Source: Lytechinus variegatus (Eukaryota; Echinodermata; Echinoidea; Temnopleuroida; Toxopneustidae). From it: 64,000 nt of DNA. Position 1 is the stretch's first letter, and each line of letters opens with the position of its first letter. A program made the position numbers and the translations under genes. The notes under the pieces are model-generated. The model did no database searches. It worked only from the letters and a program-made list of their open reading frames with translations, and was not told the origin of the DNA. Shown piece by piece: positions 21,752 to 60,296 of the stretch. Where the stretch lies: NCBI RefSeq assembly GCF_018143015.1, contig NC_054757.1:4822001-4886000 (forward strand), read 5' to 3'.

Positions 21752-22340
21752 TAAAGCTCAAGTCCACTCCAGACAAAGAAAAAAAAATCTAACTAGCATA
21801 ATGCTGAAAATTTCATCAAAATCAGATACAATATAAGCTGTGATATTTCAAAGTTTCGCTTATTTTCCTCAGAACAGTTATATGCACAACTCAGTAATAT
21901 GTAAATGAGAGAGTCGATGATGTCCATCACTCACTATTATGTTTTTTATTGTTTGAATTATACAATATTTCAAACTTTACAAAATTGACAATAATGTAAA
22001 ACTTGACTGAATAACATAATGTTAAACAATGTTAAATTCCACATGTTCAGCATGTTCAGAGAGGAATAAAACTCGATTTCACATGACAAGGGGAGAAGAT
22101 TAGAATATTTCATATTTCAAATAGTAGAATACAAAAGAAATAGTAAGTGGGTGATGTCATCGGTCCCCTCATTTGCATACCGATCAGGATGTGCCTATAA
22201 CTGTTTTGTGAAATTTAGCAAAAGTTTAAAATGTCATAACTTTCTTATATTTATTCCGATTTTGATGAAATTTTCAGTGTTATGCTTGTTTTTTTTTCTT
22301 TTTATTCAAATCAACATTTTTCTGGGATGGACTTGTCCTT
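21752..22340. mobile_element. TTAA-flanked MITE of the CAAGTCCACYCC family
   Basis: Left end TTAAAGCTCAAGTCCACTCC and right end GGGATGGACTTGTCCTTAA. TTAA at both borders fits a piggyBac-like target choice. Inner segments AAAATTTCATCAAAATC and CATCATCGACTCTC-type text recur inverted. Related copies: 45688-46291 and 46892-47486. Confidence 0.85.
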
Positions 22341-22588
22341 AACAAGCATATACCGCAAGAGGTATGGTGTACTGAATGGACAAATACATTACTTCATTCA
22401 CACTTTATAATTCATTTTATTTCAATGATTCTATCCATTTTTCTGTTTGCCAATCAGAGCAAGACTCTAATCTGTGACCATTAAATATTCATTCAAATGT
22501 TTGGAATAAAACAATAGAAACTCTTTAGAAAAAAGTACACATCAAAAATACAGAATGGAATGACGTCGCTTCATAAATATATAAATTG
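22339..22588. repeat. 245-bp direct repeat, right copy
   Basis: Partner of 21152-21396. It starts exactly at the TTAA border of the MITE, so the MITE landed at the junction preceding this copy. Confidence 0.9.
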
Positions 22589-25960: not shown

Positions 25961-26249
25961 TATCATTAATTGAATAGCATCCATCTAAATATTTTAATTT
26001 CTATCAAAATAAATTATAATTATATTTGTGAAAGAGAAGTATGAAAGTTTTGACCTGATATTTAAATTGAAAAACATTACTGAACCACAGATTGGCATAA
26101 AAAATGAACAAACTGACCTTGAGGGGGGTGAACAGACTTAAAAAAAATAAAAGTAGAAAGACTGTTTTGAGAGGTATGAAGATGAGAGGTACATGTAGGC
26201 CTATGCCAAATCTCTTCCATGTACAAGTTTAATGAAAAGTCCCCAAAAC

Positions 26250-29200
26250 GGGGTCCACCCGCCAGTCATAAGGACCACTGGTCATAATACCCGCTAGTTA
26301 TAAGGACCGCTAGTCATAATAGTCATAAGGGTCGCTATTCATAAGGGGCTTTGTTCATAGAGGTCGCAAGTCATAATCAACGATGGGGTTCGCCATTCAT
26401 AATCAAACAAGAGGGTCGCTAGTCATAATAAAGGAAGAGGGTCGCCAGTCATAAGGAGGAAAAGGGTTCGTTGATCATAAGGGTCGCCATTCATAATAGT
26501 GGATGAGGGTCGCCAGTCATAATAGTAGAAGGGGTTCGCCAGTCATAATGGTAGATGAGGGTCGCTATTCATAATAGTAGAAAGGGTTCGCCAATCATAA
26601 TAATGGATGAGGGTCGCCAGTCATAATAGTAGAAGGGGTTCGCCAGTCATAATGGTAGATGAGGGTCGTTAGTCATAATAGTAGATGGGGTTCGCCAGTC
26701 ATAATAATGGATGAGGGTCGCCAGTCATAATATTAGAAGGGGTTCGCCAGTCATAATGGCAGATGAGGGTCGCTAGTTATAATAGTAGATGGGGTTCGCC
26801 AGTCATAATAATAGATGAGGGTCGCCAGTCATAATATTAGAAGGGGTTCGCCAGTCATAATGGCAGATGAGGGTCGCTAGTCATAACAGTAGATGGGGTT
26901 CGCCAGTCATAATGGTAGATGAGGGTCGCTATTCATAATAGTAGAAAGGGTTCGCCAATTATAATAATGGATGAGGGTTGCCAGTCATAATAGTAGAAGG
27001 GGTTCGCCAGTCATAATGGTAGAGGAGGGTCGCTATTCATAATAGTAGAAAGGGTTCGCCAATCATAATAATGGATGAGGGTCGCCAGTCATAATAGTAG
27101 AAGGGGTTCGCCAGTCATAATGGTAGATGAGGGTCGTTAGTCATAATAGTAGATGGGGTTCGCCAGTCATAATAATGGATGAGGGTCGCCAGTCATAATA
27201 TTAGAAGGGGTTCGCCAGTCATAATGGCAGATGAGGGTCGCTAGTTATAATAGTAGATGGGGTTCGCCAGTCATAATAATAGATGAGGGTCGCCAGTCAT
27301 AATATTAGAAGGGGTTCGCCAGTCATAATGGCAGATGAGGGTCGCTAGTCATAACAGTAGATGGGGTTCGCCAGTCATAATGGTAGATGAGGGTCGCTAT
27401 TCATAATAGTAGAAAGGGTTCGCCAATTATAATAATGGATGAGGGTCGCCAGTCATAATAGTAGAAGGGGTTCGCCAGTCATAATGGTAGATGAGGGTCG
27501 TTAGTCATAATAGTAGATGGGGTTCGCCAGTCATAATAATGGATGAGGGTCGCCAGTCATAATATTAGAAGGGGTTCGCCAGTCATAATGGCAGATGAGG
27601 GTCGCTAGTCATAATAGTAGATGGGGTTCGCCAGTCATAATAATAGATGAGGGTCGCCAGTCATAATATTAGAAGGGGTTCGCCAGTCATAATGGCAGAT
27701 GAGGGTCGCTAGTCATAATAGTAGATGGGGTTCGCCAGTCATAATAGTGGATGAGGGTCGCTATTCATAATAGTAGAAAGGGTTCGCTAGTCATAATAAT
27801 GGATGAGGGTCGCCAGTCATAATATTAAAAGGGGTTCGCCAGTCATAATGGCAGATGAGGGTCGCCAGTCATAATAGTAGAAGGGGTTCGCCAGTCATAA
27901 TGGTTGATGAGGGTCGCTATTCATAATAGTAGAAAGGGTTCGCCAGTCATAATAATGGATGAGGGTCGCCAGTCATAATAGTAGAAGGGGTTCGCCAGTC
28001 ATAATGGTAGATGAGGGTCGTTAGTCATAATAGTAGATGGGGTTCGCCAGTCATAATAATGGATGAGGGTCGCCAGTCATAATATTAGAAGGGGTTCGCC
28101 AGTCATAATGGCAGATGAGGGTCGCTAGTCATAATAGTAGATGGGGTTCGCCAGTCATAATAATAGATGAGGGTCGCCAGTCATAATATTAGAAGGGGTT
28201 CGCCAGTCATAATGGCTGATGAGGGTCGCTAGTCGTAATAGTAGATGGGGTTCGCAAGTCATAATAATAGATGAGGGTCGCCAGTCATAATATTAGAAGG
28301 GGTTCGCCTGACATAATGGCAGATGAGGGTCGCTAGTCATAACAGTAGATGGGGTTCGCCAGTCATAATAGTGGATGAGGGTCGCTGTTCATAATAGTAG
28401 AAAGGGTTCGCCAGTCATAATAATGGATGAGGGTCGCCAGTCATAATAGTAAAAGGGGTTCGCCAGTCATAATGGTAGATGAGGGTCGCTCGTCATAATA
28501 GTAGCTGGGGTTCGCCAGTCATAATGGTAGATGAGGGTCGCTATTCATAATAGTAGAAAGGGTTCGCCAATCATAATAATGGATGAGGGTCGCCAGTCAT
28601 AATAGTAGAAGGGGTTCGCCAGTCATAATGGTAGATGAGGGTCGTTAGTCATAATAGTAGATGGGGTTCGCCAGTCATAATAATGGATGAGGGTCGCCAG
28701 TCATAATATTAGAAGGGGTTCGCCAGTCATAATGGCAGATGAGGGTCGATAGTTATAATAGTAGATGGGGTTCGCCAGTCATAATAATAGATGAGGGTCG
28801 CCAGTCATAATATTAGAAGGGGTTCGCCAGTCATAATGGCAGATGAGGGTCGCTAGTCATAACAGTAGATGGGGTTCGCCAGTCATAATAATAGATGAGG
28901 GTCGCCAGTCATAATATTAGAAGGGGTTCGCCAGTCATAATGGCAGATGAGGGTCGCTAGTCATAACAGTAGATGGGGTTCGCCAGTCATAATAGTGGAT
29001 GAGGGTCGCTATTCATAATAGTAAAAAAGGGTTCGCCAGTTATAATAATGGATGAGGGTCGCCAGTCATAATATTAAAAGGGGTTCGTTAGTCATAATGG
29101 TAGATGAGGGTCGCTATTCATAATAGTAGAAAGGGTTCGCCAGTCATAATAATGGATGAGGGTCGCCAGTCATAATAGTAGAAGGGGTTCGCCAGTCATA

Positions 29201-32004
29201 ATGGTAGATGAGGGTCGTTAGTCATAATAGTAGATGGGGTTCGCCAGTCATAATAATGGATGAGGGTCGCCAGTCATAATATTAGAAGGGGTTCGCCAGT
29301 CATAATGGCAGATGAGGGTCGCTAGTCATAATAGTAGATGGGGTTCGCCAGTCATAATAGTGGATGAGGGTCGCTATTCATAATAGTAAAAAGGGTTCGC
29401 CAGTTATAATAATGGATGAGGGTCGCCAGTCATAATATTAAAAGGGGTTCGCTAGTCATAATGGTAGATGAGGGTCGCTATTCATAATAGTAGAAAGGGT
29501 TCGCCAGTCATAATAATGGATGAGGGTCGCCAGTCATAATAGTAGAAGGGGTTCGCCAGTCATAATGGTAGATCAGGGTCGTTAGTCATAATAGTAGATG
29601 GGGTTCGCCAGTCATAATAATGGATGAGGGTCGCCAGTCATAATATTAGAAGGGGTTCGCCAGTCATAATGGCAGATGAGGGTCGCTAGTCATAATAGTA
29701 GATGGGGTTCGCCAGTCATAATAATAGATGAGGGTCGCCAGTCATAATATTAGAAGGGGTTCGCCAGTCATAATGGCAGATGAGGGTCGCTAGTCGTAAT
29801 AGTAGATGGGGTTCGCAAGTCGTAATAATAGATGAGGGTCGCCAGTCATAATATTAGAAGGGGTTCGCCTGACATAATGGCAGATGAGGGTCGCTAGTCA
29901 TAATAGTAGATGGGGTTCGCCAGTCATAATAGTGGATGAGGGTCGCTATTCATAATAGTAGAAAGGATTCGCCAGTCATAATAATGGATGAGGGTCGCCA
30001 GTCATAATATTAAAAGGGGTTCGCCAGTCATAATGGTAGATGAGGGTTTCTCGTCATAATAGTAGCTGGGGTTCGCCAGTCATAATAATGGATGAGGGTC
30101 GCCATTCATAATCAAACAAGAGGGTCGCTAGTCATAATAAAGGAAGAGGGTCGCCAGTCATAAGGAGGAAAAGGGTTCGTTGATCATAAGGGTCGCCATT
30201 CATAATAGTGGATGAGGGTCACCAGTCATAATAGTAGAAGGGGTTTGCCAGTCATAATGGTAGATGAGGGTCGCTATTCATAATAGTAGAAATGGTTCGC
30301 CAGTCATAATAATGGATGAGGGTCTCTAGTCATAATATTAGAAGGGGTTCGCCAGTCATAATGGCAGATGAGGGTCGCTACTCATAATAGTAGAAGGGGT
30401 TCGCCAGTCATAATAGTGGATGAGGGTCGCTATTCATAATAATAGAAAGGGTTCGCCAGTCATAATAATGGATGAGGGTCGCCAGTCATAATATTAGAAG
30501 GGGTTCGCCAGTCATAATGGCAGATGAGGGTCGCTAGTCATAATAGTAGAAGGGGTTCGCCAGTCATAATGGTAGATGAGGGTCGTTAGTCATAATAGTA
30601 GATGGGGTTCGCCAGTCATAATAATGGATGAGGGTCGCCAGTCATAATAGTAGAAGGGGTTCGCCAGTCATAATGGTAGATGAGGGTCGTTAGTCATAAT
30701 AGTAGATGGGGTTCGCCAGTCATAATAATGGATGAGGGTCGCCAGTCATAATATTAGAAGGGGTTCGCCAGTCATAATGGCAGATGAGGGTCGCTAGTTA
30801 TAATAGTAGATGGGGTTCGCCAGTCATAATAATAGATGAGGGTCGCCAGTCATAATATTAGAAGGGGTTCGCCAGTCATAATGGCAGATGAGGGTCGCTA
30901 GTCATAACAGTAGATGGGGTTCGCCAGTCATAATAATAGATGAGGGTCGCCAGTCATAATATTAGAAGGGGTTCGCCAGTCATAATGGCAGATGAGGGTC
31001 GCTAGTCATAATAGTAGATGGGGTTCGCCAGTCATAATGGTAGATGAGGGTCGCTATTCATAATAGTAGAAAGGGTTCGCCAGTCATAATAATGGATGAG
31101 GGTCGCCAGTCATAATAGTAGAAGGGGTTCGCCAGTCATAATGGTAGATGAGGGTCGTTAGTCATAATAGTAGATGGGGTTCGCCAGTCATAATAATAGA
31201 TGAGGGTCGCCAGTCATAATATTAGAAGGGGTTCGCCAGTCATAATGGCAGATGAGGGTCGCTAGTCATAATAGTAGATGGGGTTCGCCAGTCATAATAG
31301 TGGATGAGGGTCGCTATTCATAATAGTAAAAAAGGGTTCGCTAGTCATAATAATAGATGAGGGTCGCCAGTCATAATAGTTGAAGGGGTACGCCAGTCAT
31401 AATGGTAGATGAGGGTCGCTATTCATAATAATAGAAAGGGTTCGTCAGTCATAATAATGGATGAGGGTCGCCAGTCATAATAGTAGAAGGGGTTCGCCAG
31501 TCATAATGGTAGATGAGGGTCGCTAGTCATAATAGTAGATGGGGTTCGCCAGTCATAATGGTGGATAAGGGTCGCTATTCATAATAGTAGAAAGGGTTCG
31601 CCAGTCATAATAATGGTCGCCAGTCATAATAGGAGAAAGGGTTCGCCAGTCATAATGGTAGATGAGGGTCGCTAGTCATAATAGTAGATGGGGTTCGCCA
31701 GTCATAATAATGGATGAGGGTCGCCAGTCATAATAGTACATTGTAAAAAATAAGGTGCTAATTTAGCGCTTACAGTGATTGTATAGTGATTGCACTGGGA
31801 GTGTTGGTTTTCTAGTTTAAATTTGAACTAGAAAATCAGCACTAGTAGTACAGTCACTATACAAGCACTGTAAGTGCTGAATTAGCAATTAATTTTTACA
31901 GTGTAGTAGGGGTTTGCTAGTCATAATAGTAGATGAGGGTCGCAAGTCTTATTAGTAGAAGAGGGTCGCTAACCATGATAGTGGAAGGGGTTCGCCTGTC
32001 AGTT
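26250..32004 (+). repeat. Left foldback arm: tandem array, unit about 26 bp
   Basis: Roughly 220 units of the form GGGTYCGCCAGTCATAATNN plus a TAGAWG-type end (count from length divided by period). Higher-order repeats of about 470 bp occur (for example CATAACAGTAGATGGGG at about 26883 and 27352). A tip-proximal block at 26392 recurs at 30101. All frames are closed by stops. A MITE interrupts the array at 31737-31905. Confidence 0.95.
31737..31905. mobile_element. MITE inserted in the left foldback arm
   Basis: Inverted ends ACATTGTAAAAAAT and …ATTTTTACAGTGT. TAGTA occurs at both borders as a possible target duplication. The core matches the MITE at 5228-5465. Array units resume immediately on the far side. 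Confidence 0.75.
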
Positions 32005-32659
32005 GAAGGGAACTTTGCTACATAATAGCTGAGGTGGGCGCAAAGCGTGAGAACACAAAAAAATGTGATTTTCAAGCCTAATATGTATTATATTGTAGTT
32101 CAAAAAGGGTATTTAATTTCGAATAAGAGCACATTTTTATTTTGAAAAATGGGATTTTTTTTAAATCATAACCAGCAGGAGCTATTAAAAATGACACCCT
32201 TTAGAAAGATAAATTATCTCATGTTATTGACATTACTTTTGAAAAAAGAGCACATTTCATTTTGCCAAAAGGCTTTTTCCTTTTGAAAAAGGGCATTTTT
32301 TTTTACCTACGGCGATTTTTTTTTCATCATAACCAGCAGAAGTTGTTAGAAATGACACCCTCCCCTAAAAAAAAATCAAATTATCTTTAGGCGAAAAGGT
32401 GTAGATTGTGAATGATTCCAATAACAAGGAAATCTTCTTTGAATATATGCATTTAAGATAGTGTTGACCTAAACCTGTACCACAGTATTTTCTAAAAGCC
32501 TTTTTTTTTTAATAGAGGTTTTTTTTTAAGAAAAATGTCTTTTCTATCTATATTATACTTTTTTTTAGTTGATGTTGAATATGATATGAGCATGAAATTA
32601 TTCCTTCATATTATATATTTCATTTTTGAAAAGGAAAAAAAACAAATATTCATTGTTTA
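32005..32659. other. T-rich inner spacer of the foldback element
   Basis: Two imperfect copies of an ATCATAACCAGCAG-type segment (about 32165 and 32327) with T and A runs. No coding evidence. It separates the left arm from the LINE remnant. Confidence 0.45.
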
Positions 32660-33105
32660 CAGGACACTCATTTTGTAAAGGATTTGGAAGAAAGCATCTT
32701 AAAGGAGTGGGAGGAAGGTTTTTTTCTCATATATATCATCTAATGCAATGCTATATTATTTGATAAAAACATACAACTTGTTATTAAGAGAGTAAAATGC
32801 GACACTGATGGAAAGTATGTTCCTTATTTCATTGATTTCATTGTATGGGCAAAATGACCCTAAATTTTTTAGATGTATTGAAAGTATCTTATTGGACTAT
32901 GATGATCCTCATAAAATCCTATGTGGTGATTGGAACCTGGTCCAAAGTTTTGAGTCAGTGAGTTAATTTAGTTGATCCATGGCGTCAGTTAAATCCAAAT
33001 CCAAAATGTTATACTTGGAGACAGCCCACACCATTGAAGCAAAGTAGAAAACATTATTTTTTTGATATCTTCAGATATTATTTCTTTGGTTAGAAAATGT
33101 GATAT

Positions 33106-33314
33106 TTTTATTTATTTATTTTTTTTTTTTTAAACAAGTGCACACCTAGTTACCAATAATGCATACAGCATTTCCATTTATTTGAAAGCAGGATAAAAGA
33201 GCATTGTAGATTAAATGCCTTGCTCACGGGCATAGCTGCTGCGGCCGGGGATCGAACCCCGGACTTTCCATGTATAGCCAGGCGCCTTAGACCACTCGGC
33301 CACGGCACCTCCAC
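33106..33314 (-). mobile_element. tRNA-derived SINE, copy 2, inside the LINE endonuclease
   Basis: On the minus strand: A-box TGGCCGAGTGGTCTAAGGCG, B-box GGGTTCGATCCCC, then AAGGCATTTAATCTACAATG and a body ending in an A/T-rich tail. GATAT occurs at both borders (33101-33105 and 33315-33319). Removing the insert rejoins the endonuclease frame. It lacks a tRNA-Leu/Ser variable arm, so it is not a working tRNA. Confidence 0.8.
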
Positions 33315-34770
33315 GATATCCTAAATATTGATTTAGGATATCGTACCGATCACACAATGATCAGTTTAGAGATTGTGTTAGCTAAATGTTTTTACAGTAT
33401 CTTGATATTGTCTTCATGGTAAAGCTTTTGAAACTGTTAGAAAAGAGAAACTCAGATTTATTATTGATTATCAGTTGTTTTTTTATACACTGTTCATAGG
33501 CGGATCTAGGGGTCCGAGGGGCCCACCCCCCCCCCCCATTGGCGGAGCAAAAATATTAAAAGGGGGAAGAAAGAAAGAAAGAAAGAGAGAAAAAAAAGAA
33601 AAAGAAGGGAAAAGAGAGGAGAAAAAAAGAAGGGGAAACACAAGAAGAGGAAGACGAGTGAATAAAATAAGATGAGGGGAAGCCTAGGAAAATGATTTTT
33701 AAAATCCTTAATGTCACTATAAAAAAAAATCTCTTGCGCTTCTCGCTTGCATTGCATGTAAGGTGATTTACATATCAATATGGAGATTGAAATATTAAAA
33801 TTTGAAGTCAACATAGAAAACATATTTCAGCTTAGAAATCGGACTTTCATTATTTTGTTTGATTTACAAAGTGATTTTTAAAAAGTGCTCAGCAAAACTT
33901 TTTGTTTTATGGTCTGAATTTTTAAAAATTTCGGCTCGCGATTATAGCTCGCATTGATTGTTGAAAATCTATCAACTCATGCATCTTCTTCATAAATCAT
34001 AAATACAAAAGTGCTTTAAATGTATAGTTTTCAGGTCATAATATTAATAGATTTCACGCTCTCACATTAGGCTTATTAGGTTAATAAATAAGATATTAAT
34101 TTAAGAATCAAATTGTCCCTTTTTTTCTTATAGTCATAATTTTCATATGATGACACAATGCTCTTGGAATGTCCTGGTCCTATGTCAAAACTCAAAGTAA
34201 TAATAATGAAACTTTTGAATGAAATTAAAATAATGAAACTCTTTTTTTTAAATCTCATCCATATCCACCTCACAATTTTTCCTACAAAGTGCTTGAAATA
34301 CAGAGCTTAAATTGACCCTTTTCAGATCGGAATATCAAATGTTTTAAGCTCGCGCTTCGCGCTCACACTTTATCGATTTTAACGATGACAAAAGGTATTT
34401 AGAATGCCCACTCAGATTCTAGGTCTAAATCTGAAACACGCGCGCGTTTATTCAGATACGCAGCTTGTTCTCTGTATAAATCATTATCCAGTTTTATTCC
34501 ACAATATAAAAAAAATTGTGCTCGCGCTTTGCGCTCAATGTAGAAAGATATCCAATTACTCATCCTTTTCATGATTTACAAAACATGAATGGAGTGTCCC
34601 GTTTTTAGGTGTAAACAGCGGCGTAACAGGGGTCGGTGGCCAAGGGAGGGGGGGGGGCAAGAGACAAAAATTTCCCGGTCATATCATGGAATAAACAGGC
34701 GCAATGGTGTAATTAGGCGACGATTTCGAAAGGGCAAGACATTGTGTATCAGGCAGAATTTATCTTTTAA

Positions 34771-35541
34771 CCCTATCTAGGCCGGGGTATTTTGGGAGTT
34801 CCTATGGCCGGGGGGGGGGGCCTCCCAGGCCCCCCCCCCTAAGATCTCGGCCGTCGACCGCGCGATCGCGCCGAAAATTGGCACGCGGGTTGCCTGGGGC
34901 ATAATCTACAAGATTGTATAGTAATTTATTTCATGCGAATCGCTATTAAGTGATTATGCTAATTTATGCGTAATTAGTATGCGAAATCATACTTTTCCCT
35001 CTAACTCCCTAAATAAAGCTCTAAATGTACTAATTTTTGGTATAGAAACTCTTTGTGGTGTCCTTAGCAAGCGTACATGAAAAAAATTGTGATATCAAAT
35101 CATTTTCTTATGTATTATATTGTTTTTTGCAATTTCTTATGTATTTCTTTGTTTTTTGGGCCTTTTGTTTTTCATTGTTTTTTCAATGAAATTTGTTGGG
35201 GACTCTTCTGTGATCATTAAAAGCATAAAATGAATACATTTAGACTAGAAAAACAATAAATAATCATACATTTATGAATTTTGGTTGAAAACACAATTTG
35301 CATTGACTTTGTACACGAAATCACGTTTTTGAGCAATTTTCGGTCTGACATGCACTTACATAATGTTGCGTAATTTCGGAACCACGTACCCGGGTGATGC
35401 AAAATTGGTCTCAAAAGTTGTGCAAGACTTGAAAGTAAAAAGTCAGCGAGCGGTGCGGTCAAAAAATTTCGCACGGCGAAAATATCGCGCGATTCGTTGA
35501 GGGGGGGGGCCTCCGAGGCCCCCCCCCCGGCCTAGATAGGG
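34771..35541. mobile_element. piggyBac-like MITE with TTAA borders
   Basis: Ends CCCTATCTAGGCCGGGG and …CCCCGGCCTAGATAGGG are inverted repeats flanked by TTAA on each side (34767-34770, 35542-35545). Next to each end lies a GC-rich block (GGGGCCTCCCAGGCCCC-like). No transposase. Confidence 0.85.
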
Positions 35542-36811
35542 TTAAAAAAAAGTTGCGAGAGAGCGATGCGAGCGAGCAAAAATTTTGACATTTTTAATTC
35601 AAAAATCCAATTTTGTGATAGATTTTGACATGATATCCAGAGAATATATTTCACTCTTCTCTCTTTCCATCCCTTTTTTGTGATCTGTACGCCACTGTTA
35701 ACAGGATTATTTGCGGCAGTAGCGTGCAGAGTAAAGAAAACCAAAATCAAGGGGCGCAGTATGGCGCATGTGCTAAAAAAGCTGCTTAATATAAGTCCCG
35801 AGCGAGCGAAGCGAGAAAAAAATCACCTTTTCATGAGAATCTAAATTTGAGATATCTTTTTTTACATGGTAAAACTTTTGGGGACCATGGCCCAACCCTT
35901 CCATACTCATATACGGCAGTGCTATGCGTTTGGGGTCTGGGGCGTAGCCCCCGGAACTTCTTGATATCAAAGCCATTTAAACCTCGCAGATTGCCGCTAT
36001 TTAATCAAATTGCGGGTATATACAGAATATAGCTTTTACACAACACATTTATTCAACCCAGTTGAACCAAATATTTTGAGGGGGCAAAACATAGCAATGT
36101 GGGGGGAAGTCGCCAGCGAGCAAGCGAGCTGGAAAAAAATGCCTATTGAAATTAAATTCTAATTATGTGATAGATTTCTCCATTATATTCAGCAAATAAC
36201 ACATTTAATTGTTTCCATTCATTTCATTATACGTTGTCTCCCATAAATTCTTTAATTTCCTCTTGGGAGTTGAACCAAGACCCCCCCTGCGCCTGTACGC
36301 CAGTGATTGAAAGTAAAGCTTAATGTAGGAAGGGTCCCTAAAGGGGGGGGGGGCGTAATAGAGCCATTTGAAGGTCATAGATGAAGAGCCCCTACTGCTT
36401 GGGGTCTGGGGCAAAGCCCCGGTAGCTTTTTTTGCATAAAATTTAGCAAGCTAATAGCACAATGTTGTATGCAGTTCCTCTTTCTTCTCGCTCTTTATTT
36501 TCTATCCTCGTCAGCCCGGTCGTGTTATTAAGTTTTTATTTCTTGTCCCTTTTCTTTATTTTCCAATTTAGCTTTTGACTAATTCCATTCTACCTTCATT
36601 TCCCGCTATTGTTTGCCATCTTTTAATTTATTTCCCATCATGCTATTGCACTATATAGGTCTATTTCAGAATGATTTGTTCTTTCTCAAATGTTTTTCTT
36701 TCGTTCTTCCCGCTTTCCTTCCTTTTCCATTTCAAAAAATATATTTTTCCTTGTTTTCTTTTTAATATATTATATTAACAATTTCTGCTCGCGCTTTGCG
36801 CTCGCTATATT

Positions 36812-37225
36812 AAAGGAAACCAAAACCCAAGAAGAAAAGCAATTTCACTTGAAAGAGTAAAATGAAAGGATCAATTTAAAAAAAGTTTCATCAAAATCGG
36901 TTATGAAATAAGCAAGTTATGGGAGTTTGAAAACTCTTGTTGTACTTTCTAAGGGCATCCTTAAATTGGCAAACGTGCTTCAATATGGCTGATTTTGTGG
37001 ACAACTCTCCATTTGTTTTGTACACAAATTTTCAGATTTTCCTCATTATCTTTCAAGTTGCATCTTGCCTCCTTCTGAGCACAACATATGTCATGGGAAA
37101 ATATAATCCACACAATATATGTCAAGGTCAGGAGGTGATAATGTGAAATATGTAAAATAAAGGGGAAAATCTGAAAATATGTGTACAAAACAAATGGAGA
37201 GTTGTCCACAAAATCAGCCATTCAG
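36812..37225. mobile_element. MITE fragment with inverted inner arms
   Basis: GGCTGATTTTGTGGACAACT at about 36985 returns inverted near 37200 (AGTTGTCCACAAAATCAGCC). It begins AAAGGAAACCAAAACCC. The right terminus is unclear. It lies between GC clusters of the hAT-like element. Confidence 0.55.
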
Positions 37226-38479
37226 TCAATTCTGCTCGCGCTTCACGTTCGTAGTAGTTATTTGCATGCACATCTTTTTCAGAAAAAATACAAAGGATTT
37301 CCAAAAAATTAGCTCGCGCTTCGCGCTCACATTATATAAATAAAGATGATATTGTCTATAAATGTTCATTCATAGGAATAAAGCTAAGAAGTGAGTATTA
37401 GGATTACCCCTTCAAAGAAACCAAAAATTATCTTCGAGTGGCCGATCGGGGAAAATATGTCTGAAAAAAATTCCGCCCCCCCCCTATTCAACATTTGTTG
37501 AATTGATTCATGATAATGGTACAGTATTGCAAGAACAAACAGACATCTTAAGAGAAATTGGGTCATATAATGAACAGTTATATAAATATAAATATCATGG
37601 AAATAGTGATGCTGAAGAACTTTTTTTTATCTTATTAGAGAAGAGAGTTTCCATAGTCTTACAGAGGAAAACGATTCTTCTTTAGGAGAAATATCTTACA
37701 GTGAAGTTGATTTTGCATTAAAAAAATATGAAAAATAATAAGCCTCCTGGACGAGATGGATTTACAACTGATTTTTTTAAAGCATTCTTTCAGGACTTAG
37801 GTATATTCTTGGTACGAAGTATGAATTTTGCTTATATTTCTGGAAAATTATCCATCTCACAAACAATAATGGCTTGATAACATTAATTCCTTAAGGTGAC
37901 AAAGTAAGACATTTCATCAAAAATTGGAGATCAGTTTCATTGTTGAATGTTGTTTGTAAACTGTTGTAAAGTTGTATTGCTCACAGACTTTAAAAAGTAT
38001 TACCATATAATTATTCATGTTAATCAATCAGGATTCTTGTCTGGACGATTTATTGGTGAAAATAGGAAAATTTTGTATTATTTAATTGTGTATATGGAGA
38101 AGAAACATATTCCTGATTTCTGATTTTTCATGATTTTTTGTTTAAAACGCTTTCCATTTTTAAATTTGGCAAATCTTTCATGACATGAATAAAAATACTT
38201 GATCAGAATGCATTTTCTAGTGTTATAGTCAATGGGCAAATGACATTAAGATTCGTTTTTGTTAAGCGCTAGAAGTCTTGGGTTGTTAATTCGAAATTCA
38301 CACTCTGCCAAACGAATTTATGTTGGCTTAAAAGAATACAAAGTTCTTTAAAATGCGGATGACACAGTTTATTTCTCAATGGTGCAGCTGCCAGTTTCTG
38401 TAATGTACTAAATATTTTGGATTCATTTGCTAAATGTAGTGGGTTGAAGGTCAATACGCAAAATCTACCATATACCTCA

Positions 38480-41400
38480 GCTACCATTTTGACTGGCGAA
38501 CCCCTTCTACTATTATGAAAATCGACCCCCATCTACTATTATGACTGGCGAACCCTTTCTTCTATTATGACTGGCGACCCCAATCCATTATTATGATTGG
38601 CGAACCCTTTCTACTATTATGAATAGCGACCCTCATCTACCATTATGACTGGCGAACCCCTTCTACTGTTGACTGGCGAACCCCTTTTAGTATTATGACT
38701 GGTGACCCTCATCCATTATTATGACTGGCGAACCCTTTCTGCTATTATGAATAGCGACCCTCATCTACCATTATGACTGGCGAACCCCTTCTACTTTTAT
38801 GAATAGCGACCCTAATCTACCATTATGACTGGCGAACCCCTTCTACTTTTATGACGGGCGAACCCCTTTTAGTATTTTGACTGGCGACCCTCATCCATTT
38901 TTATGACTGGCGAACCCATTCTCCTATTATGACCGGCGACCCTCATTCATTATTATGACTTCCGAACCCTTTCTACTATTATTAATAGCGACTCTCATCT
39001 ACCATTATGACTGGCGAACCCCTTTTATTATTATGACTGGCGACCCTGATCTATTATTATGACTGGCGAACCCTTTCTACTATTATGAATAGCGACCCTC
39101 ATCTACCATTATGACTGGCGAACCCCTTCTACTGTTATGACTGGCGAACCCCTTTTAGTATTATGACTGGTGACCCTCATCCATTATTATGACTGGCGAA
39201 CCCTTTCTGCTATTATAAATAGCGACAGTCATCTACCATTATGACTGGCGAACCCCTTCTACTTTTATGAATAGCGACCTTAATCTACCATTATGACTGG
39301 CGAACCCCTTCTACTTTTATGACGGGCGAACCCCTTTTAGTATTTTGACTGGCGACCCTCATCCATTATTATGACTGGCGACCCTCATCCATTATTATGA
39401 CTGGCGAACCCTTTCTACTATTATGAATAGCGACCCCTATCTACCATTATGACTTGCGAACCCCTTCTACCATTATGACTGGCGAACCCCTTCTACTTTT
39501 ATGACTGGCGAACCCTTTCTACTATTATGAATAGCGACCCCCATCTACCATTATGACTGGCGAACCCCTTCTACTTTTATGACGGGCGAACCCCTTTTAG
39601 TATTTTGACTGGCGACCCTCATCCATTATTATGACTGGCGACCCTCATCCATTATTATGACTGGCGAACCCTTTCTACTATTATGAATAGCGACCCCTAT
39701 CTACCATTATGACTTGCGAACCCCTTCTACTTTTATGACTGGCGAACCCTTTCTACTATTATGAATAGCGACCCCCATCTACCATTATGACTTGCGAACC
39801 CCTTCTACCATTATGACTGGCGAACCCCTTCTACTTTTATGACTGGCGAACCCTTTTTAGTATTATGACTGGCGACCCTCATCCATTATTATGACTGGCG
39901 AACCCTTTCTCCTATTATGACTGGCGACCCTCATTCCTTATTATGACTGGCGAACCCTTTCTACTATTATGAATAGCGACCCTCATCTACCATTATGACT
40001 GGCGAACCCCTTCTACTATTATGAATAGCGACCCTCATCTACCATTATGACTGGCGAACCCCTTCTACTATTATGAATAGCGACCCTCATCTACCATTAT
40101 GACTTGCGAACCCCTTCTACTATTATGACTGGCGAACCCCTTTTAGTATTATAACTGGCGACCCTCATCCATTATTATGACTGGCGAACCCTTTCTCCTA
40201 TTATGACTGGCGACCCTCATCCATTATTATGACTGGCGACCCTCATTCCTTATTATGACTGGCGAACCCTTTCTACTATTATGAATAGCGACCCTCATCT
40301 ACCATTATGACTGGCGAACCCCTTCTACTATTATGAATAGCGACCCTCATCTACCATTATGACTGGCGAACCCCTTCTACTATTATGAATAGCGACCCTC
40401 ATCTACCATTATGACTGGCGAACCCCTTCTACTTTTATGTCTGGCGAACCCCTTTTAGTATTATGACTGGCGACCCTCATCCATTATTATGACTGGCGAA
40501 CCCTTTCTCCTATTATGACTGGCGACCCTCATCCATTATTATGACTGGCGAACCCTTTCTACTATTATGAATAGCGACCCTCATCAACCATTATGACTTG
40601 CGAACCCCTTCTACTATTATGACTAGCGAACCCCTTTTAGTATTATGACTGGCGACCCTCATCCATTATTATGACTGGCGAACCCTTTCTCCTATTATGA
40701 CTGGCGACCCTCATCCATTATTATGACTGGCGACCCTCATCCATTATTATGACTGGCGAACCCTTTCTACTATTATGAATAGCGACCCCCATCTACCATT
40801 ATGACTTGCGAACCCCTTCTACCATTATGACTGGCGAACCCCTTCTACTTTTATGACTGGCGAACCCTTTTTAGTATTATGACTGGCGACCCTCATCCAT
40901 TATTATGACTGGCGAACCCTTTCTCCTATTATGACTGGCGACCCTCATTCCTTATTATGACTGGCGAACCCTTTCTACTATTATGAATAGCGACCCTCAT
41001 CTACCATTATGACTGGCGAACCCCTTCTACTATTATGAATAGCGACCCTCATCTACCATTATGACTGGCGAACCCCTTCTACTATTATGAATAGCGACCC
41101 TCATCTACCATTATGACTTGCGAACCCCTTCTACTATTATGACTGGCAAACCCCTTTTAGTATTATAACTGGCGACCCTCATCCATTATTATGACTGGCG
41201 AACCCTTTCTCCTATTATGACTGGCGACCCTCATCCATTATTATGACTGGCGACCCTCATTCCTTATTATGACTGGCGAACCCTTTCTACTATTATGAAT
41301 AGCGACCCTCATCTACCATTATGACTGGCGAACCCCTTCTACTATTATGAATAGCGACCCTCATCTACCATTATGACTGGCGAACCCTTTCTACTATTAT

Positions 41401-43448
41401 GAATAGCGACCCTCATCTACCATTATGACTGGCGAACCCCTTCTACTATTATGAATGGCGACCCTCATCTACCATTATGACTGGCGAACCCCTTCTACTT
41501 TTATGTCTGGCGAACCCCTTTTAGTATTATGACTGGCGACCCTCATCCATTATTATGACTGGCGAACCCTTTCTCCTATTATGACTGGCGACCCTCATCC
41601 ATTATTATGACTGGCGAACCCTTTCTACTATTATGAATAGCGACCCTCATCTACCATTATGACTTGCGAACCCCTTCTACTATTATGACTAGCGAACCCC
41701 TTTTAGTATTATGACTGGCGACCCTCATCCATTATTATGACTGGCGAACCCTTTCTCCTATTATGACTGGCGACCCTCATCCATTATTATGACTGGCGAC
41801 CCTCATCCATTATTATGACTGGCGAACCCTTTCTACTATTATGAATAGCGACCCCCATCTACCATTATGACTTGCGAACCCCTTCTACCATTATGACTGG
41901 CGAACCCCTTCTACTTTTATGACTGGCGAACCCTTTTTAGTATTATGACTGGCGACCCTCATCCATTATTATGACTGGCGAACCCTTTCTCCTATTATGA
42001 CTGGCGACCCTCATTCCTTATTATGACTGGCGAACCCTTTCTACTATTATGAATAGCGACCCTCATCTACCATTATGACTGGCGAACCCCTTCTACTATT
42101 ATGAATAGCGACCCTCATCTACCATTATGACTGGCGAACCCCTTCTACTATTATGAATAGCGACCCTCATCTACCATTATGACTTGCGAACCCCTTCTAC
42201 TATTATGACTGGCGAACCCCTTCTACTATTATGAATAGCGACTCTCATCTACCATTATGACTGGCGAACCCCTTTTACTATTATGACTGGCGACCCTGAT
42301 CTATTATTATGACTGGCGAACCCTTTCTACTATTATGAATAGCGACCCTCATCTACCATTATGACTGGCGAACCCCTTCTACTATTATGAATAGCGACCC
42401 TCATCTACCATTATGACTGGCGAACCCCTTCTACTATTATGAATAGCGACCCTCATCTACCATTATGACTGGCGAACCCCTTCTACTATTATGAATAGCG
42501 ACCCTCATCTACCATTATGACTGGCGAACCCCTTCTACTTTTATGATTGGCGAACCCCTTTTAGTATTATGACTGGCGACCCTCATCCATTATTATGACT
42601 GGCGAACCCTTTCTCCTATTATGACTGGCGACCCTCATCCGTTATTATGACTGGCGACCCTCATCCATTATTATGACTGACGAACCCTTTCTCCTATTAT
42701 GACTGGCGACCCTCATCTACCATTATGACTGGCGAACCCCTTCTACTATTATGAATAGCGACCCTCAGTTACCATTATGACTGGCGAACCCCTTCTACTA
42801 TTATGAATAGCGACCCTCATCTACCATTATGACTGGCGAACCCCTTCTACTTTTATGACTGGCGAACCCCTTTTATTATTATGACTGGCGACCCTCATCC
42901 ATTATTATGACTGGCGACCCTCATCCATTATTATGACTGGCGAACCCTTTCTACTATTATGAATAGCGACCCTCATCTACCATTATGACTTGCGAACCCC
43001 TTCTACAATTATGACTGGCGAACCCCTTTTATTATTATGACTGGCGACCCTCATGTATTATTATGACTGACGAACCCCTTCTACTATTATGACTGGCGAC
43101 CCTCATCACCTATTATGACTGGCGACCCTTATGATTAATGTAGCCTCTTCCTTTTTATGACTAGCGACCCTTATCTAGTATTATGAATACCGACCCTCGT
43201 TGTTGATTATGACTAGCGATCCTTATGATCAATTACCCTTATGGTCCATTATGAATAGCGACCCTTATCTTGCATTATGAAAATCGGACCTTATGACCCA
43301 TGGTCCTTATGACCTTATGACTAGCGACCCCTTTTGCCTATTATGACTAGCGAGCTTTTGGGTATAGGATTTTACACGTTATGACTAGCGGTCCTTATGA
43401 CCAGTCAGTATTATGACTTATGGTCCTTATGACTGACGGGCTTACCCC
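38480..43448 (-). repeat. Right foldback arm: tandem array, unit about 26 bp
   Basis: About 190 units that read, on the minus strand, like those of the left arm (on plus: ATTATGACTGGCGAACCCCT). Higher-order repeats are about 1.02-1.07 kb (for example TTATAACTGGCGACC at 40148 and 41164; TTATGTCTGGCG at 40435 and 41510), different from the left arm. Tip-proximal units past 43100 diverge. Confidence 0.95.
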
Positions 43449-43453
43449 AAAAC

Positions 43454-43856
43454 AGGGGAGGTGGAAGGTATAAAATTGCAAGAAGAAGTATGCATTAAGT
43501 GCGCAACCTGTAAAGTGAGCGATCACTTTTTTGTCAACACTTTCATGGACGAAAATCCACCTGTTACTGATGACCCCCCCCCCCCTGTGTGATAACGGAA
43601 CTGTTTTAACAAGATGGCAGTCATTACTTCTCTAAGGGTGTGTTAAATGTTAATTTTCAAATTTAAACAGCAACATGAATTCTGATTGAAAACTCAATTA
43701 CAAAATGCAGAATACAATTACAAGCACGATCAGCATGGAAAATATAGAGACAATTGTTTGTCGATCATCCCGGCGATCATCTCAAATTTCCTTTTGTTAG
43801 TGCAGCTTATTGTGCACAGTTTAACCCATCACAAGAAAGGTCAATTCTGGCACCTG
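43454..43856. other. Flank of the foldback element, no feature recognised
   Basis: AT-rich with one C-run near 43577. No coding evidence. Confidence 0.45.
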
Positions 43857-43980
43857 GGGCCCGTAACACAAAACTTAGCAACGTAGATTATTTTCTACGA
43901 TCGATTCCATGGTCTACAATGTACAATCAATCGTGAAAATCGAGTGTACGATTAATTGCTAAACTTTGTGTTACGGGACC
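43857..43980. mobile_element. MITE with GGGCCCGTAACACAAA ends
   Basis: Inverted ends GGGCCCGTAACACAAAACTT and …AACTTTGTGTTACGGGACC. Same family as 15206-15335. Confidence 0.8.
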
Positions 43981-44320
43981 CTGCTTTGTACTGTAGGCTT
44001 CTACTGCGAGAGAAAATTTAAAGACGTTTCAAAACTCAATCGTATACAGTGTCCCATTCGTGATGCTGAAGGTCGTAAAATCTGAGGTTATCGCGATTAC
44101 AAACATATATTTTACAACGTTTAAATTTTTTTCCAATTGTGATTTCATTGATAGACTTTTACAACCAGTAATGAAGGACATCGAACACACCCTTTGTTTT
44201 CTCATTATATCTGCGTTTGTCATCAAGTTTTCAATCAGGATTGAAGCTGCCTTTTATATTTGGAAACCGACATTGAACATACCCTAAAAAGGCGACAAAC
44301 TATCAAGAGTTTGCCATATA

Positions 44321-44690
44321 CAGTGCGTCCCACAAAAAGGAAATCCATTTTCAGAGATACATGTACATGTAGATTTTACAATTATATTTGATACTCATGA
44401 AAAGATTAGAATCTCATCTCATCTCTAATTTGAAATGAACAGCTTATCAAATTGTCCCCCGTCCACCCCTTGTATGTATGCTGGTGATTGCTGATGCTGT
44501 GTGTTTATTTTTCATTTGATCTTCATATGTATTTTTTGTTATTGTTTGGGAGCTACAACTCACAAGTTCTCATGAACTTTTAAGTAGTTTTCCTTTTTTC
44601 TCTTTTCGTGTAATTTTTACTCATGTACATATTGTTTTTTTATATTGATGAGAGAATAAATTAACTGAACTGAACTAGATTTTTTATGAT
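44321..44690. mobile_element. Tc1-like end and probable retroelement tail
   Basis: TACAGTGCGTCCCACAAAAA near 44321 resembles inverted Tc1-like ends at 23795 and 63500. The stretch ends with an AATAAATTAACTGAACTGAA-type tail at about 44655-44677, as in LINE 3' ends. The boundary between the two is uncertain. Confidence 0.35.
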
Positions 44691-45419
44691 TTCACAAAGT
44701 TCAGTTAACGTCCACTGTAACTGTACCAAATCTAGATCTGGTGACAAACATCATTGCTTTCACAGACTTTCTCATGACATAAGTGTGAACTACTTTCATT
44801 ACCTAAATTAAAGTGAAGTTTTATATTAAATCTTTAACAAAGTAATCAACATCAACACCATTAATGTTGACTAAGAAAACATAATATACAGTTTACAAAA
44901 TGGATCTACATCTACAAACATTTCACATAAAAAAATAAAATCTTGTCACAATGACTGTTTTCAACCTCAGAAAATAAAATATACAGTATCAAGGGAAAAT
45001 AACAAATAGGCCTATAGAAGCTCTTAACCTATTTTCATAATATCACTAGACTTAATTTTTCGACCTCTTATACAATAACATAATATATGTATACAATGCA
45101 TTGGAAGATAGCAACAATGGAAGCTTAAAACTTCATTTCAAAATATTTAGACCACAAGAATACAAATATCATACCACAGCAATATTTTATAAGAAACTGG
45201 AAAGCACTAGGATATTAAAGTTATTGCAAACTTAATAGCAAAGCAAAATATAAATACATACATGTAATAATAATTTAGAGGCGCTAAAAACTAAAGTACA
45301 ATAGCACGTACAATTTATGAATAACAATTTAACATTTGCAATGATTACTACAATTAATTCAAGATAAAAAGGGAAATTATTGAAGAAAAAGGTATGTCTT
45401 AAGGGAAGATTTGAAGCCA
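44691..45419. other. AT-rich, no feature recognised
   Basis: No splice-bordered exon or clear repeat seen. Confidence 0.45.
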
Positions 45420-45687
45420 AGAACACTGGAAGCATTTCTTATTGAAAGAGGGATAGCATCCTAAGTCTTGGCAGGTGCTATGTACAGCAAAATGTTTTTC
45501 AGCAGAGGAGTTTTGACAAGGGAATGCAAAGTCTGCATGTGTCAGTGATTGAACAAAGATTACGAGAGGGTGTGTATAATTTGATGGTATTAAGATATTC
45601 AGGTGCCAATTGATTTAGAGCTTTGTATACATATAAACAGACTTTAGACTGAATATGTTGGAATAGAGGTAGGCAGTGGAGTTCCTT
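45420..45687 (-). mobile_element. LINE 3' fragment (CR1/L2-like C-terminus)
   Basis: Minus-strand translation gives ELHCLPLFQHIQSKVCLYVY, ALNQLAPEYL and SRNLCSI, the conserved tail after the RT domain, then frameshifts. The TTAA MITE at 45688-46291 interrupts it on its upstream side. Confidence 0.65.
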
Positions 45688-46291
45688 AAAGGTCAAGTCC
45701 ACCTCAGAAAACTGTTGATTTGAATCAATAGAGAAAAATCAGACAAGCACAATGCTGAAAATTTCATCAAAATCCGATGTAAAATGAGAAAGTTATGACA
45801 TTTCAAAGTTTCGCTTATTTTCAACAAAATAGTTATATGAACGAGCCAGTTACATCCAAATGAGAGAGTCGATGATGTCACTCACTCACTATTTCTTTTG
45901 TTTTTTTATTGTTTGAATTATACAATATTTCAATTTTTGCGAATTTGATGATTAGGACCTCCTTGCCTGAATCACAAAATGTTAAAATAATGGAATTCCA
46001 GTGTTCAGGGAGGAATGAAACTTCATTTCACATGACAATGATGAGAAAATAAAAATATTTCATATTTCATATAATAAAATACAAAAGAAATAGTGAGTGA
46101 TGTCATCAGTTTCCTCATTTGCATACCGACTGAGATGTGCATATAACTGTTTTGTGAAATGAAGTGAAACTTTAAAATGTCATAACTTTCTTATTTTACA
46201 TCCGATTTTGATAAAATTTTCAGTGTTATGCTTGTTGAATTTTTCTATTTTTATTCAAATCAAGTTTTTGTTGGGGTGGACTTGTCCTTTA
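45688..46291. mobile_element. TTAA-flanked MITE of the CAAGTCCACYCC family
   Basis: Ends TTAAAGGTCAAGTCCACCTC and …GGGGTGGACTTGTCCTTTAA, with TTAA on both sides. Inner arms share AAAATTTCATCAAAATCCGA with other copies. Confidence 0.85.
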
Positions 46292-46507
46292 AGTAGGGGT
46301 GTATATGACATTGTGATTGATGTATATTGGAGATTATAGAATATCTAAGCCACATCATTTAAAAATTTTGTTCATGAATTAAAAAATGAGATGGAATGCG
46401 GATCTAACAGTGCAGAGTCCTAAAAATTGTAAGAAGGGTTGCAACCGCCAATGCTGTAGCTGATAGAGGCAACCAATCAATACAAAAATGGGCAGTGTGG
46501 TCCACAT

Positions 46508-46740
46508 GGGCCCTGTGGTCCAGTGGTTCGAGCATTGGACTCATTATCGCAAGGTTGTGGGTTTGAATGAATCCCAACTCTGCCATTGTCTCCACTTTTA
46601 TGAAAAGGCCTGAGAGTGAAATCTGTCATCTATAATGCAGCTACTATGACAAAATGTTTCCTATAGGTGATTGATTATATACCAGCTTGGCGTTTACCAG
46701 CAAAACGCTGTCCTGCCGAGTTCCTACAGGAGTTACCACA
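46508..46740 (+). mobile_element. tRNA-derived SINE, second family
   Basis: Head GGCCCTGTGGTCCAGTGGTT and B-box-like GTGGGTTTGAAT, carrying a 4-bp duplication (GAATGAATCCC) that breaks the tRNA T-arm. A non-tRNA body follows (ACTTTTATGAAAAGGCCTGA, TTGGCGTTTACCAGC). Not a functional tRNA. Confidence 0.6.
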
Positions 46741-46891
46741 AACAGAAACTACAACTTCCTTTATTGTTTTGCTCGTGATATATTTTGTAATAAATTGTTT
46801 ATTGTACTATCTTTGTTAATTTGTTCATGAACAAGTTGCAGAAATCAGTAGATGAAATAAATGGACTAGGTTATTCTGGTCATCGACCTTT

Positions 46892-47486
46892 AAAGGACAA
46901 GTCCACCCCAACAAAAAGTTGATTTGAAAAAAAGGAGAAAAATCCAACACGCAAAACACTGAAAATTTCATCGGATGTCAAATAAGAAAGTTATGACATT
47001 TTAAAGTTTCGCTTAATTTCACAAAACAGTTAAATGCACATCCTGGTCGGTATGCAAATTGGCAGACTGATGACATCACCCACTCACTATTTCTTTTGTT
47101 TTTTATTATATGAAATATTCTAATTTTCTCCTCCTTGTCAAGTGAAACAAAGTTTTATTTCTCCCTGAACATGTGGAATTATGATTATTTTAACAGTTTA
47201 TGGTTAAGTCAAGTTGGTCCTTATTGTCAATTCTGTAAAAATTGAAATATTGAATTATTCACACAATATAAAACAAAAAAAGAAATAGTGAGTGATGGAC
47301 ATCATCGACTCTCTCATTTGCATATCGCTGAGTTGTGCATTTAAATTGTGAAAAATAAGCGAAACTTAAAAATGTCATAACTTTCTTATTTCAAATCCGA
47401 TTTCGATGAAATTTTGCACCGTTATGTTTGTGTGATTTTCTCTATCGATTGAAATCAACAATTTTCTGGGGTGACTTGACCTTTAA
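46892..47486. mobile_element. TTAA-flanked MITE of the CAAGTCCACYCC family
   Basis: Ends TTTAAAGGACAAGTCCACCC and …GGGGTGACTTGACCTTTAA. Inner text CATCATCGACTCTC and its inverted partner TGATGACATCACCCACTC are present. Confidence 0.85.
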
Positions 47487-49108
47487 TGAAATTAGCCACA
47501 TTCAATCCGCATCCAATATTTATCCACAAACTCATGAAAGGGGGTTTCAGTGACCCAATGGGAATGTCAGCCAGTATCTGTAATAAATATTCAAACAATT
47601 GATGAAAACAAAATCAGCAACTAAATCCTTTTAATCTTGAGAAGGAAAATGGCCAATCTAACCCAGAACCAGACCTACCAACCTTTGGGAATGAAAAATT
47701 GTATTCTGTGATAAAAAAAATATTCCCCCCCCCAAAAAAATGTATTTCATAATAAAATGATTGGCGCACTCGCTCATAGCAGCGCTCAAGAAGCATGAAA
47801 GCTAAAATGCGCACTGCTCTTGCAGATGAAAAAAAACATTGATACATGTGTATATCTCACCCTGGTTTTAACAAAATGATTGAAAAAAAACAAGTTACCT
47901 GAAATTACATTGATCTAATTACCAAATTTGTGTAAGTTTTATGAAATAGAGACATATTGAGGTGATGTTTTTTTTTTACGAAAACATATTATTAAAGAAA
48001 AATCGTACTGCCGTATTTTGGTTATAAAAACGTACTGGTTAGCAGGTCTGCACAACCATCAAGGATGAACTATGAGACCGGTACTGGCAAGTCTTTGTAT
48101 GTGATTCGACCCCAGGCTAAGGGGCCAACTTTTGAAAATGCGGCATCAAGGATATTACATGTAATAGCATACCTTCTATTAATTCTGAATTTCTGTAAAA
48201 ATTGAAATGCATAATTCAAATTGAAATGTAGAGTATAATTTATATATTCATAACATACTATCCTTTAAAGTCACTATAAAAATGTACACATTCCGAGTTA
48301 AGGCAAATAAGTCACATTAAAATTTCTTATCTCAATTTTTTTTTTAATGCGCTCTAGGCAGTTTGATGACTCATGGTGCTCTTGAAACTCTCATAAGAAT
48401 AGTGCTTGGCAAATACACCCTGTTATTAACCTTGATTGCTATTTTTATTCATAGATGATTAGGTCTTTTGTGTAAGGTGTTTAAGGCTTGGCTGCCTGTA
48501 GGTATTAGTTAGGCATCACATTGAAAAAAAAGTCCAGTAATGCAAAATGCAAAGAGTTATTTCTAATTCTATTGACCAAAACAGGATAAAATGAACAGAT
48601 TTTTGGCCTGAATATAATGTACTGTACAAGGAGGATTTGGAATACATGTTGTAAAACCATGGTTGATTTCATAAATAAGTTAAGCCTAGTTCAGCCTATT
48701 TTAAAAAGAAATTGTACAATAATGATTGCATGTACATTTACTTCTTTGTTTAATACTTTTTTCCTACAGTTAAAGCATTATGAATTTTGTGAGCCGATTG
48801 TAATCTGTTAATGAATACTGGCTTAGTACTGCAGTGACCTTCCCAAAAGCATGAATTTGGCATCCTGTAACAGATGGGCGTTTTCATGATTACCGTAGAC
48901 TTTTACTCAATACATGTATATATGCAATGAATGAAGCGTAATTACATGTAAATTATAAAATTTGTAAATAAGAGTAAATAAGAGTAAATATATTCAAAAC
49001 AAGTGACCTGGCCTCAGACATGTAACCGTTGATGCCGAGTCACAAGTTCTATACTTTTTATGAAAATAAATCTATGTAAAGGCATAAGTTTACGAGAACT
49101 GACCGAAG
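47487..49108. other. Intergenic, 3' of the SLC35D gene
   Basis: AT-rich with short homopolymers. No exon or clear element. The transporter 3' UTR should start at 49108 and run leftward; no single convincing poly(A) signal could be chosen. Confidence 0.45.

Positions 49109-60254: not shown

Positions 60255-60296
<42 letters not shown>

Follow-up and report, generated by a model that had tools for sequence, protein, structure and literature searches.

The TU elements of the sea urchin Strongylocentrotus purpuratus have inverted arms made of tandem repeats, heterogeneous middles and 8-bp target-site duplications (TSDs). The FB elements of Drosophila carry foldback arms with internal tandem repeats, and the lengths of their terminal inverted repeats (TIRs) are independent of each other. 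Here we describe an element of this architecture in another sea urchin, Lytechinus variegatus. It lies in a window of 64,000 nucleotides (C18:4822001-4886000), where it occupies positions 26250 to 43448; the genome searched for its relatives comprises 869.6 Mb in 33 contigs. Two opposed arrays of 26-bp units surround a core of about 6.5 kb, which is non-coding and consists of a decayed long interspersed nuclear element (LINE) plus nested inserts. We regard the element as a non-autonomous cut-and-paste DNA transposon of foldback architecture with two different ends, called A and B, and assign a probability of about 0.88 to this reading. The family is real, abundant and recently active in L. variegatus.

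With TU it shares the sea-urchin host, the long inverted tandem-repeat arms, the heterogeneous middles and the 8-bp TSDs. Its 26-bp unit (16 bp at the tips), its arms of 1.2-6.4 kb among those read and its unlike ends set it apart from TU as described. Galileo of Drosophila likewise has foldback arms, internal tandem repeats and TIR lengths that change independently, but is described with a P-type transposase, a 7-bp TSD and TIRs of up to about 1.2 kb (PMC3573991, PMC3688188), in contrast to TSDs of 8 or 9 bp and arms of up to 6.4 kb here. Tetris of Drosophila virilis is also a foldback element whose TIR repeats form satellite-like arrays, and in which no transposase is reported to have been found; its unit measures about 220 bp, its TIRs at most 1,735 bp, and three structurally complete copies are described (PMC4079207), compared with 26 bp and at least 82 pairs here. 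The Tm1 Mutator/Foldback elements of Meloidogyne have composite TIRs, varying repeat number, asymmetric tips and TSDs of 8-10 bp, and are described as mostly transposase-less (PMC3169594). Their unit is 13-15 bp long, their TSDs are mostly 9 bp and a transposase-bearing member is known (PMC3169594), whereas the arms here reach kilobases and no transposase was found. Since the tips of Tm1 are reported to be unlike (PMC3169594), unequal ends are no bar to membership in the foldback class. Merlin elements have GG termini, TSDs of 8 or 9 bp and, in some families, imperfect TIRs with internal tandem repeats; the TIR lengths given for them are 24-462 bp (PMC8101967), and no Merlin transposase is linked to the ends described here. 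The foldback kind itself is known; the unlike-end rule, the arm size and the fossil-LINE cargo make this element an unusual variant of it. A description of the family is absent from the titles and abstracts of the open-access literature searched on TU, foldbacks and Lytechinus repeats.

Ends, pairing and target sites

The ends of neighbouring copies on contig 1, which lie in unrelated flanks, are of two types, A (GGGGTCCACCCGCCAGTC...) and B (GGGATAAGCCCGTCAGTC...). Comparison of 10 A and 7 B ends from differing flanks, those of the window among them, sets 26250 and 43448 as the first and the last base of the element, and the limits proposed in the first-pass annotation, which was made from the sequence alone, are exact to the base. 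The aligned tips begin with GGGG and GGGA. Mean identity over 230 bp is 96.2% among A ends (45 comparisons, 10 ends); it is 96.7% among B ends (21 comparisons, 7 ends) and only 81.2% between A and B (70 comparisons). The B tip of the window reads GGGGTAAG, that of the other 6 aligned B ends GGGATAAG. A search of the whole genome with up to 2 mismatches gave 203 matches to the left tip A (GGGGTCCACCCG...), 181 to the right tip B (GGGATAAGCCCG...) and 0 to each of the reversed controls.

For the analysis of pairing, 100 A and 100 B tips were listed, all of them exact and located on C1-C8, and tips facing each other within 50 kb were joined. This gave 82 facing pairs (164 tips) with lengths of 8,085-35,909 bp and a median of 14.4 kb. 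They comprise 44 AB and 38 BA pairs, and not a single AA or BB pair. If ends were drawn randomly, the chance of such all-unlike pairing would be about 2e-25. Equivalence of the ends, as in a palindrome, fails on both counts, with 82 of 82 listed pairs unlike and 81% identity between the types compared with 96-97% within them.

TSDs were analyzed in the flanks of 27 elements, namely 20 drawn randomly from 77 unread pairs, 6 on contig 1 and the one in the window. Exact duplications were found in 20 of the 27 (8 bp in 14, 9 bp in 6) and duplications with one mismatch in another 3 (two of 8 bp, one of 9 bp); the random 20 alone contributed 16 exact ones. Among 702 mispaired flanks none reached 8 bp with at most one mismatch, a control that counted 8-bp but not 9-bp matches. 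An exact 7-bp duplication, as in Galileo, was seen in 0 of 27 elements in strict register. Because of these target duplications, excision by cut-and-paste can be assumed. Together with the pairing of A with B in all listed pairs, they point to a foldback DNA transposon with non-interchangeable ends and not to a plain palindrome.

The core travels in a fixed orientation. A 34-bp tag from it was found in 42 places of the genome, 32 of them exact; on C1-C8, 19 of 24 places are located inside listed A/B pairs, and all 19 point the same way with respect to A and B. The first-pass annotation had read the locus as one inverted structure of the foldback type and not as two satellites. The facing pairs, the target duplications and the uniform core orientation support both parts of this view, and its reservation that no other copy might share the tips did not hold.

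Arms, core and other copies

The following features were assigned within and next to the element.

26250..43448, + strand: whole foldback element of 17,199 bp, A end left and B end right; its tips belong to the genome-wide A and B tip sets
26241..26249, + strand: left TSD candidate CCCCAAAAC, from flank comparison
26250..26480, + strand: A-end subterminal domain, 16-bp units followed by irregular 26-bp units, from the alignment of A ends
26482..31738, + strand: A-arm array of 26-bp units, largely in higher-order units of 52/104 bp
31738..31905, no strand: hairpin insert in the A-arm array, resembling a miniature inverted-repeat transposable element; inverted self-match of 82% over 170 bp, relative at 5361-5466
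31919..32015, + strand: degenerate inner units of the A arm, from repeat and unit parsing
32640..33100, + strand: probable LINE endonuclease-region remnant with broken frames, by eye
33130..33306, − strand: dispersed repeat resembling a short interspersed nuclear element (SINE), tRNA-headed by eye; relative at 15421-15590
34771..35541, no strand: nested inverted-repeat element with TTAA target and perfect 23-bp ends
36985..37221, no strand: palindromic insert, arms 83% complementary
37430..38475, + strand: decayed LINE reverse-transcriptase remnant, truncated by the B-arm array
38481..43130, − strand: B-arm array of 26-bp units, opposite in orientation to the A arm
43125..43448, − strand: B-end subterminal domain, from the alignment of B ends
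43445..43453, + strand: right TSD candidate CCCCAAAAC, its first four bases overlapping the B tip

The left arm was parsed into 217 units, of which 205 are exactly 26 bp long, and the right arm into 189 units (180 exactly 26 bp). By eye, the unit consists of a 16-bp motif, GGTCGCCAGTCATAAT, and a purine-rich spacer of 10 bp; among the outermost units the period is 16 bp. Motif matches with up to 4 mismatches number 212 in the left arm, all on the + strand, and 187 in the right arm, all on the − strand; the rest of the window has a single one, with 4 mismatches. Period, unit counts and motif counts all bear out two opposed 26-bp arrays around the core, as proposed from the first inspection. In the whole genome, a 22-bp unit pattern (up to 2 mismatches) has 39,948 matches, 21,172 forward and 18,776 reverse, with 0 in the reversed control. 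Outside the host it was absent from viral contigs and matched once in each of 3 prokaryote records, and a 1-kb array query had no match in phages and plasmids. A TA duplication at the hairpin insert (31738-31905) would preserve the 26-bp register, as judged by eye.

It had also been suggested that marker variants follow the same order from each tip. This applies to the outermost sequence and to the short-range order of units, but not to the interior arrays, which are not colinear. Tip against tip, the outermost 95 bp or so align with a score of 90, compared with best interior scores of 69 (91 windows) and 42 (104 windows). In the zone about 110-260 bp from the tip, the alignment score is equalled by 38 of 650 interior-right and 5 of 740 interior-left windows. 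The right arm has one copy of a 15-mer marker from this zone and the left arm two, and the outer zone of the left arm recurs about 3.7 kb deeper in the same arm. Counted from the tip, the unit-class order ABC is found 11 and 19 times in the two arms and CBA 0 and 0 times. Over the whole arrays there is no excess alignment of unit order between the arms (10.5, against 10.5 when reversed and 6.0-12.0 in 20 shuffles). The longest exact repeats measure 422 and 561 bp within the arms and 89 bp between them. Long repeats within arms, short ones between them and an uncorrelated unit order show that the arms are no simple mirror duplication. Each arm has private unit variants and the arm lengths are unequal. 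The shuffled-like order, the private variants and the within-arm repeats indicate separate expansion: the two arms grew independently of each other. An extreme arm length was observed at C1:25775323-25792860, where a + oriented stack of about 13.6 kb faces a short − array with an A tip; in the stretch read, the opposite end had no tip.

Two explanations that do not involve transposition have to be considered here. The arrays might be two unrelated satellites, or a single array flipped by a chromosomal inversion, and the interior unit order, which is not colinear, agrees with that. It is ruled out by the 82 facing pairs among the tips listed, the TSDs and the 19 of 19 cores alike in orientation inside listed pairs, and practically no weight remains for it. 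An assembly artefact of mirrored or collapsed reads deserves thought since long arrays are hard to assemble, and array copy numbers may indeed be inexact in the assembly. A mirrored read, however, would yield equal arms, while the arms seen here are unequal in length and carry private variants; ends and TSDs are also consistent at independent loci. These findings rule out a mirror and make an artefact very improbable.

The core contains remains of a LINE. A read-through composite of the reverse-transcriptase remnant matched RVT_1 with an E-value of 3.6e-05 and 24 bits, which is below the Pfam cut-off of 29.6, and the single core pieces tested had no RVT_1 match. For the probable endonuclease region, one piece gave a weak Exo_endo_phos_2 match (E 0.036) and the composite none. 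Continuation of the LINE beyond the right tip was not visible in the three + frames at 43400-44700. The 22 Pfam queries, made up of 15 core pieces, 5 pieces of flank genes and 2 composites, revealed no transposase in the core; inside it they gave only LINE matches and sub-cut-off noise. ARAGORN detected no tRNA gene in the SINE-like repeat (33130..33306). The insert at 34771-35541 is missing from the element at C1:30772737-30789173, which represents a natural empty site. Its TTAA target presumably indicates a piggyBac or Kolobok type.

To compare cores, 12 elements were read at their middle; they were picked by length and are not a random sample. Two of them carry the core of the window at 99.3% and 99.1% over 1.5 kb, with 3 substitutions in 1496 positions and 1 in 1489, the remaining differences being indels. 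One contains it at 94-97% with an empty site in place of the TTAA insert, and two contain parts of it, one 617 bp long at 95.8% and the other 427 bp long at 97.9%. Another core of 3 kb without long open frames, 95.5-99.3% alike, is present in four. Of four copies of this 3-kb core checked for open frames, three have none of 90 residues and the fourth has one of 107. Two middles were still array and one had no match. The element at C1:835003-859509 is 88.7-94.5% identical to the core of the window over five stretches. There are at least two recurring core types, and in both a transposase is unrecognisable where read. The 42 places of the core tag and the near-identical copies suggest that the passenger was moved recently. 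Judging from these sequences, the fossil LINE appears to have been aboard before the element spread, and the spread seems to be recent, although gene conversion between copies may lie behind the near-identity of the cores.

In several elements the unit spectra of the arms follow the ends. A arms of four elements are similar to each other with cosines of 0.91-0.98 and B arms of three elements with 0.85-0.97, compared with 0.56-0.77 between the A and the B arm of the same element (three elements). The arms of the window represent a further, more diverged spectrum set, and its B arm is nearest to that of C1:859509 (0.83).

Candidate transposases and proposed mechanism

Membership in the TU family, with 26-bp units replacing the classic ones, would be one assignment, for TU is also from a sea urchin and has a like architecture of tandem-repeat inverted arms and 8-bp TSDs. 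As TU arms are shorter than 1 kb with 15-bp units, and the likeness is one of description and not of sequence, we consider this assignment doubtful. Mobilisation by a Merlin superfamily transposase fits the ends best, in view of the GG tips and the 8- or 9-bp duplications. Merlin elements are described as starting with GG, with TSDs of 8 or 9 bp and, in some cases, very imperfect TIRs and internal tandem repeats (PMC8101967); here the tips are GGGG and GGGA, and the TSDs are exact at 8 bp in 14 and at 9 bp in 6 of 27 elements. The genome holds 51 matches to DDE_Tnp_IS1595, the Merlin-type domain, several of them in long open frames. To our knowledge, a Merlin-type foldback would be the first of that superfamily. 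Proximity was analyzed for the elements with exact tips on C1-C8. Within this scope, none of 29 Merlin-type matches is closer than 5 kb to any of the 82 pairs listed or closer than 50 kb to one of the 36 listed tips without a partner, and the closest listed tip is 0.9 Mb away. The open gene L090, read over 2.5 kb with its flanks, has neither A/B tips nor a run of the motif. Weighing both sides, we hold a Merlin-type enzyme to be possible, at somewhat short of even odds. L090 itself (C12:5602843-5604291) is an open frame of 483 residues that encodes a DDE domain of Merlin type. As the 2.5 kb read show no clear inverted repeats, it is perhaps a domesticated gene.

A Mutator (MULE) transposase, as in Tm1 of root-knot nematodes, is another candidate. 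Tm1 has composite TIRs with tandem repeats of 13-15 bp in varying number, unlike tips of 7 bp and TSDs of 8-10 bp (PMC3169594). PF10551, the MULE domain, has 31 matches in the genome, and several of these are in long open frames. On the other hand, the 8-bp TSD (14 of 27) outnumbers the 9-bp TSD (6 of 27) here, while Tm1 has mostly 9 bp and MULE groups are described with TSDs of 9-11 bp (PMC6446971). In the same C1-C8 set, none of 21 MULE matches comes within 5 kb of any pair or within 50 kb of an unpaired tip on the list, and the closest is 60 kb from a listed tip. A MULE-type enzyme is rather unlikely.

For the foldback transposon with unlike ends, the following mechanism is proposed. A transposase made elsewhere would act in trans and recognise the tips, and probably also the stacked 16-bp motif, and it would join one A end with one B end. 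Everything between the joined ends would be moved, including the dead LINE core. The arms could lengthen and homogenise by unequal exchange inside each array, so that arm length would be free to vary, and selection for mobility would preserve the tips. In Galileo, transposase-binding sites are reported to lie in the tandem repeats of the TIRs (PMC3688188). The full model is put forward tentatively, at odds clearly below even: a still-mobile family in which A pairs with B only, each end is backed by a one-way stack of as many as about 200 docking sites for the transposase, and a Merlin-type enzyme acting in trans does the moving.

Several observations weigh against the interpretation of the element as a mobile foldback with two kinds of end and docking sites in its arms. 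Neither the cores read nor the surroundings of the listed elements yielded a transposase, the proximity searches having covered Merlin and MULE types but not P and hAT. Of 200 tips, 36 are outside the listed pairs (the list holds exact tips), and 5 of 24 core-tag places on C1-C8 are not inside one either. Three of the 27 elements have no TSD even with one mismatch allowed. In the element of the window, the duplication in strict register is only 5 bp (AAAAC). The CCCCAAAAC match holds only if the last four bases of the altered B tip are counted as target. By chance, a shared word of at least 9 occurred in 43 of 20,000 random pairs of 25-bp stretches. The duplication of the window may be the 5-bp AAAAC, which is ruled out as a rule of the family by the 8 or 9 bp in other copies. 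The B arm of C1:1108037-1125372 is A-like in the inner part read (cosine 0.90-0.94), whereas three A arms, those of C1:25692643, 864239 and 3599227, fall outside the A group (0.55-0.68). The arrays are therefore not strictly tied to their end; the tips remain different, but array sequence can apparently drift or be transferred from one arm to the other. The motif shows no shortage of rare unit variants (motif versus other positions: 27 versus 16 in the left arm, 20 versus 23 in the right), and the docking idea is thus unsupported by the variation inside this element.

Genomic surroundings and meaning

The element sits among genes, as indicated by nearby exons. A gene for a UDP-sugar-transporter-like protein has exons at 49109-51791 (−), and a two-exon splice is 100% identical to a L. 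variegatus protein. At 59975-60355 (+) there is a pfkB-kinase-like exon, by eye of an adenosine kinase. The window also contains a tandem duplication at 8211-8976 (382-bp unit, two copies, 99%) and a 4-bp microsatellite (CAAT/GATT) of about 0.5 kb at 60258-60772. At 45682-47490 and 21775-22587 there are several inverted-repeat elements, each about 0.6 kb long and 66-93% similar to one another; one of them is also present in the core of the C8:12094622 element (92.6%).

For the family, these results show in one genome that foldbacks whose arms measure kilobases are mobile units, and that their exact ends can be strictly of two kinds. The two kinds of end argue against a plain palindrome and against arms copied from one end. 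The function of the repeat stacks becomes testable, because natural copies vary in arm length while their tips are the same and their cores are near-identical within a subfamily. With its 39,948 unit-pattern matches, the family clearly illustrates how a satellite-like repeat is spread by a transposon. If the model of A-B pairing by a Merlin-type enzyme is true, the element would be a natural vehicle for 17 kb of dead passenger DNA.

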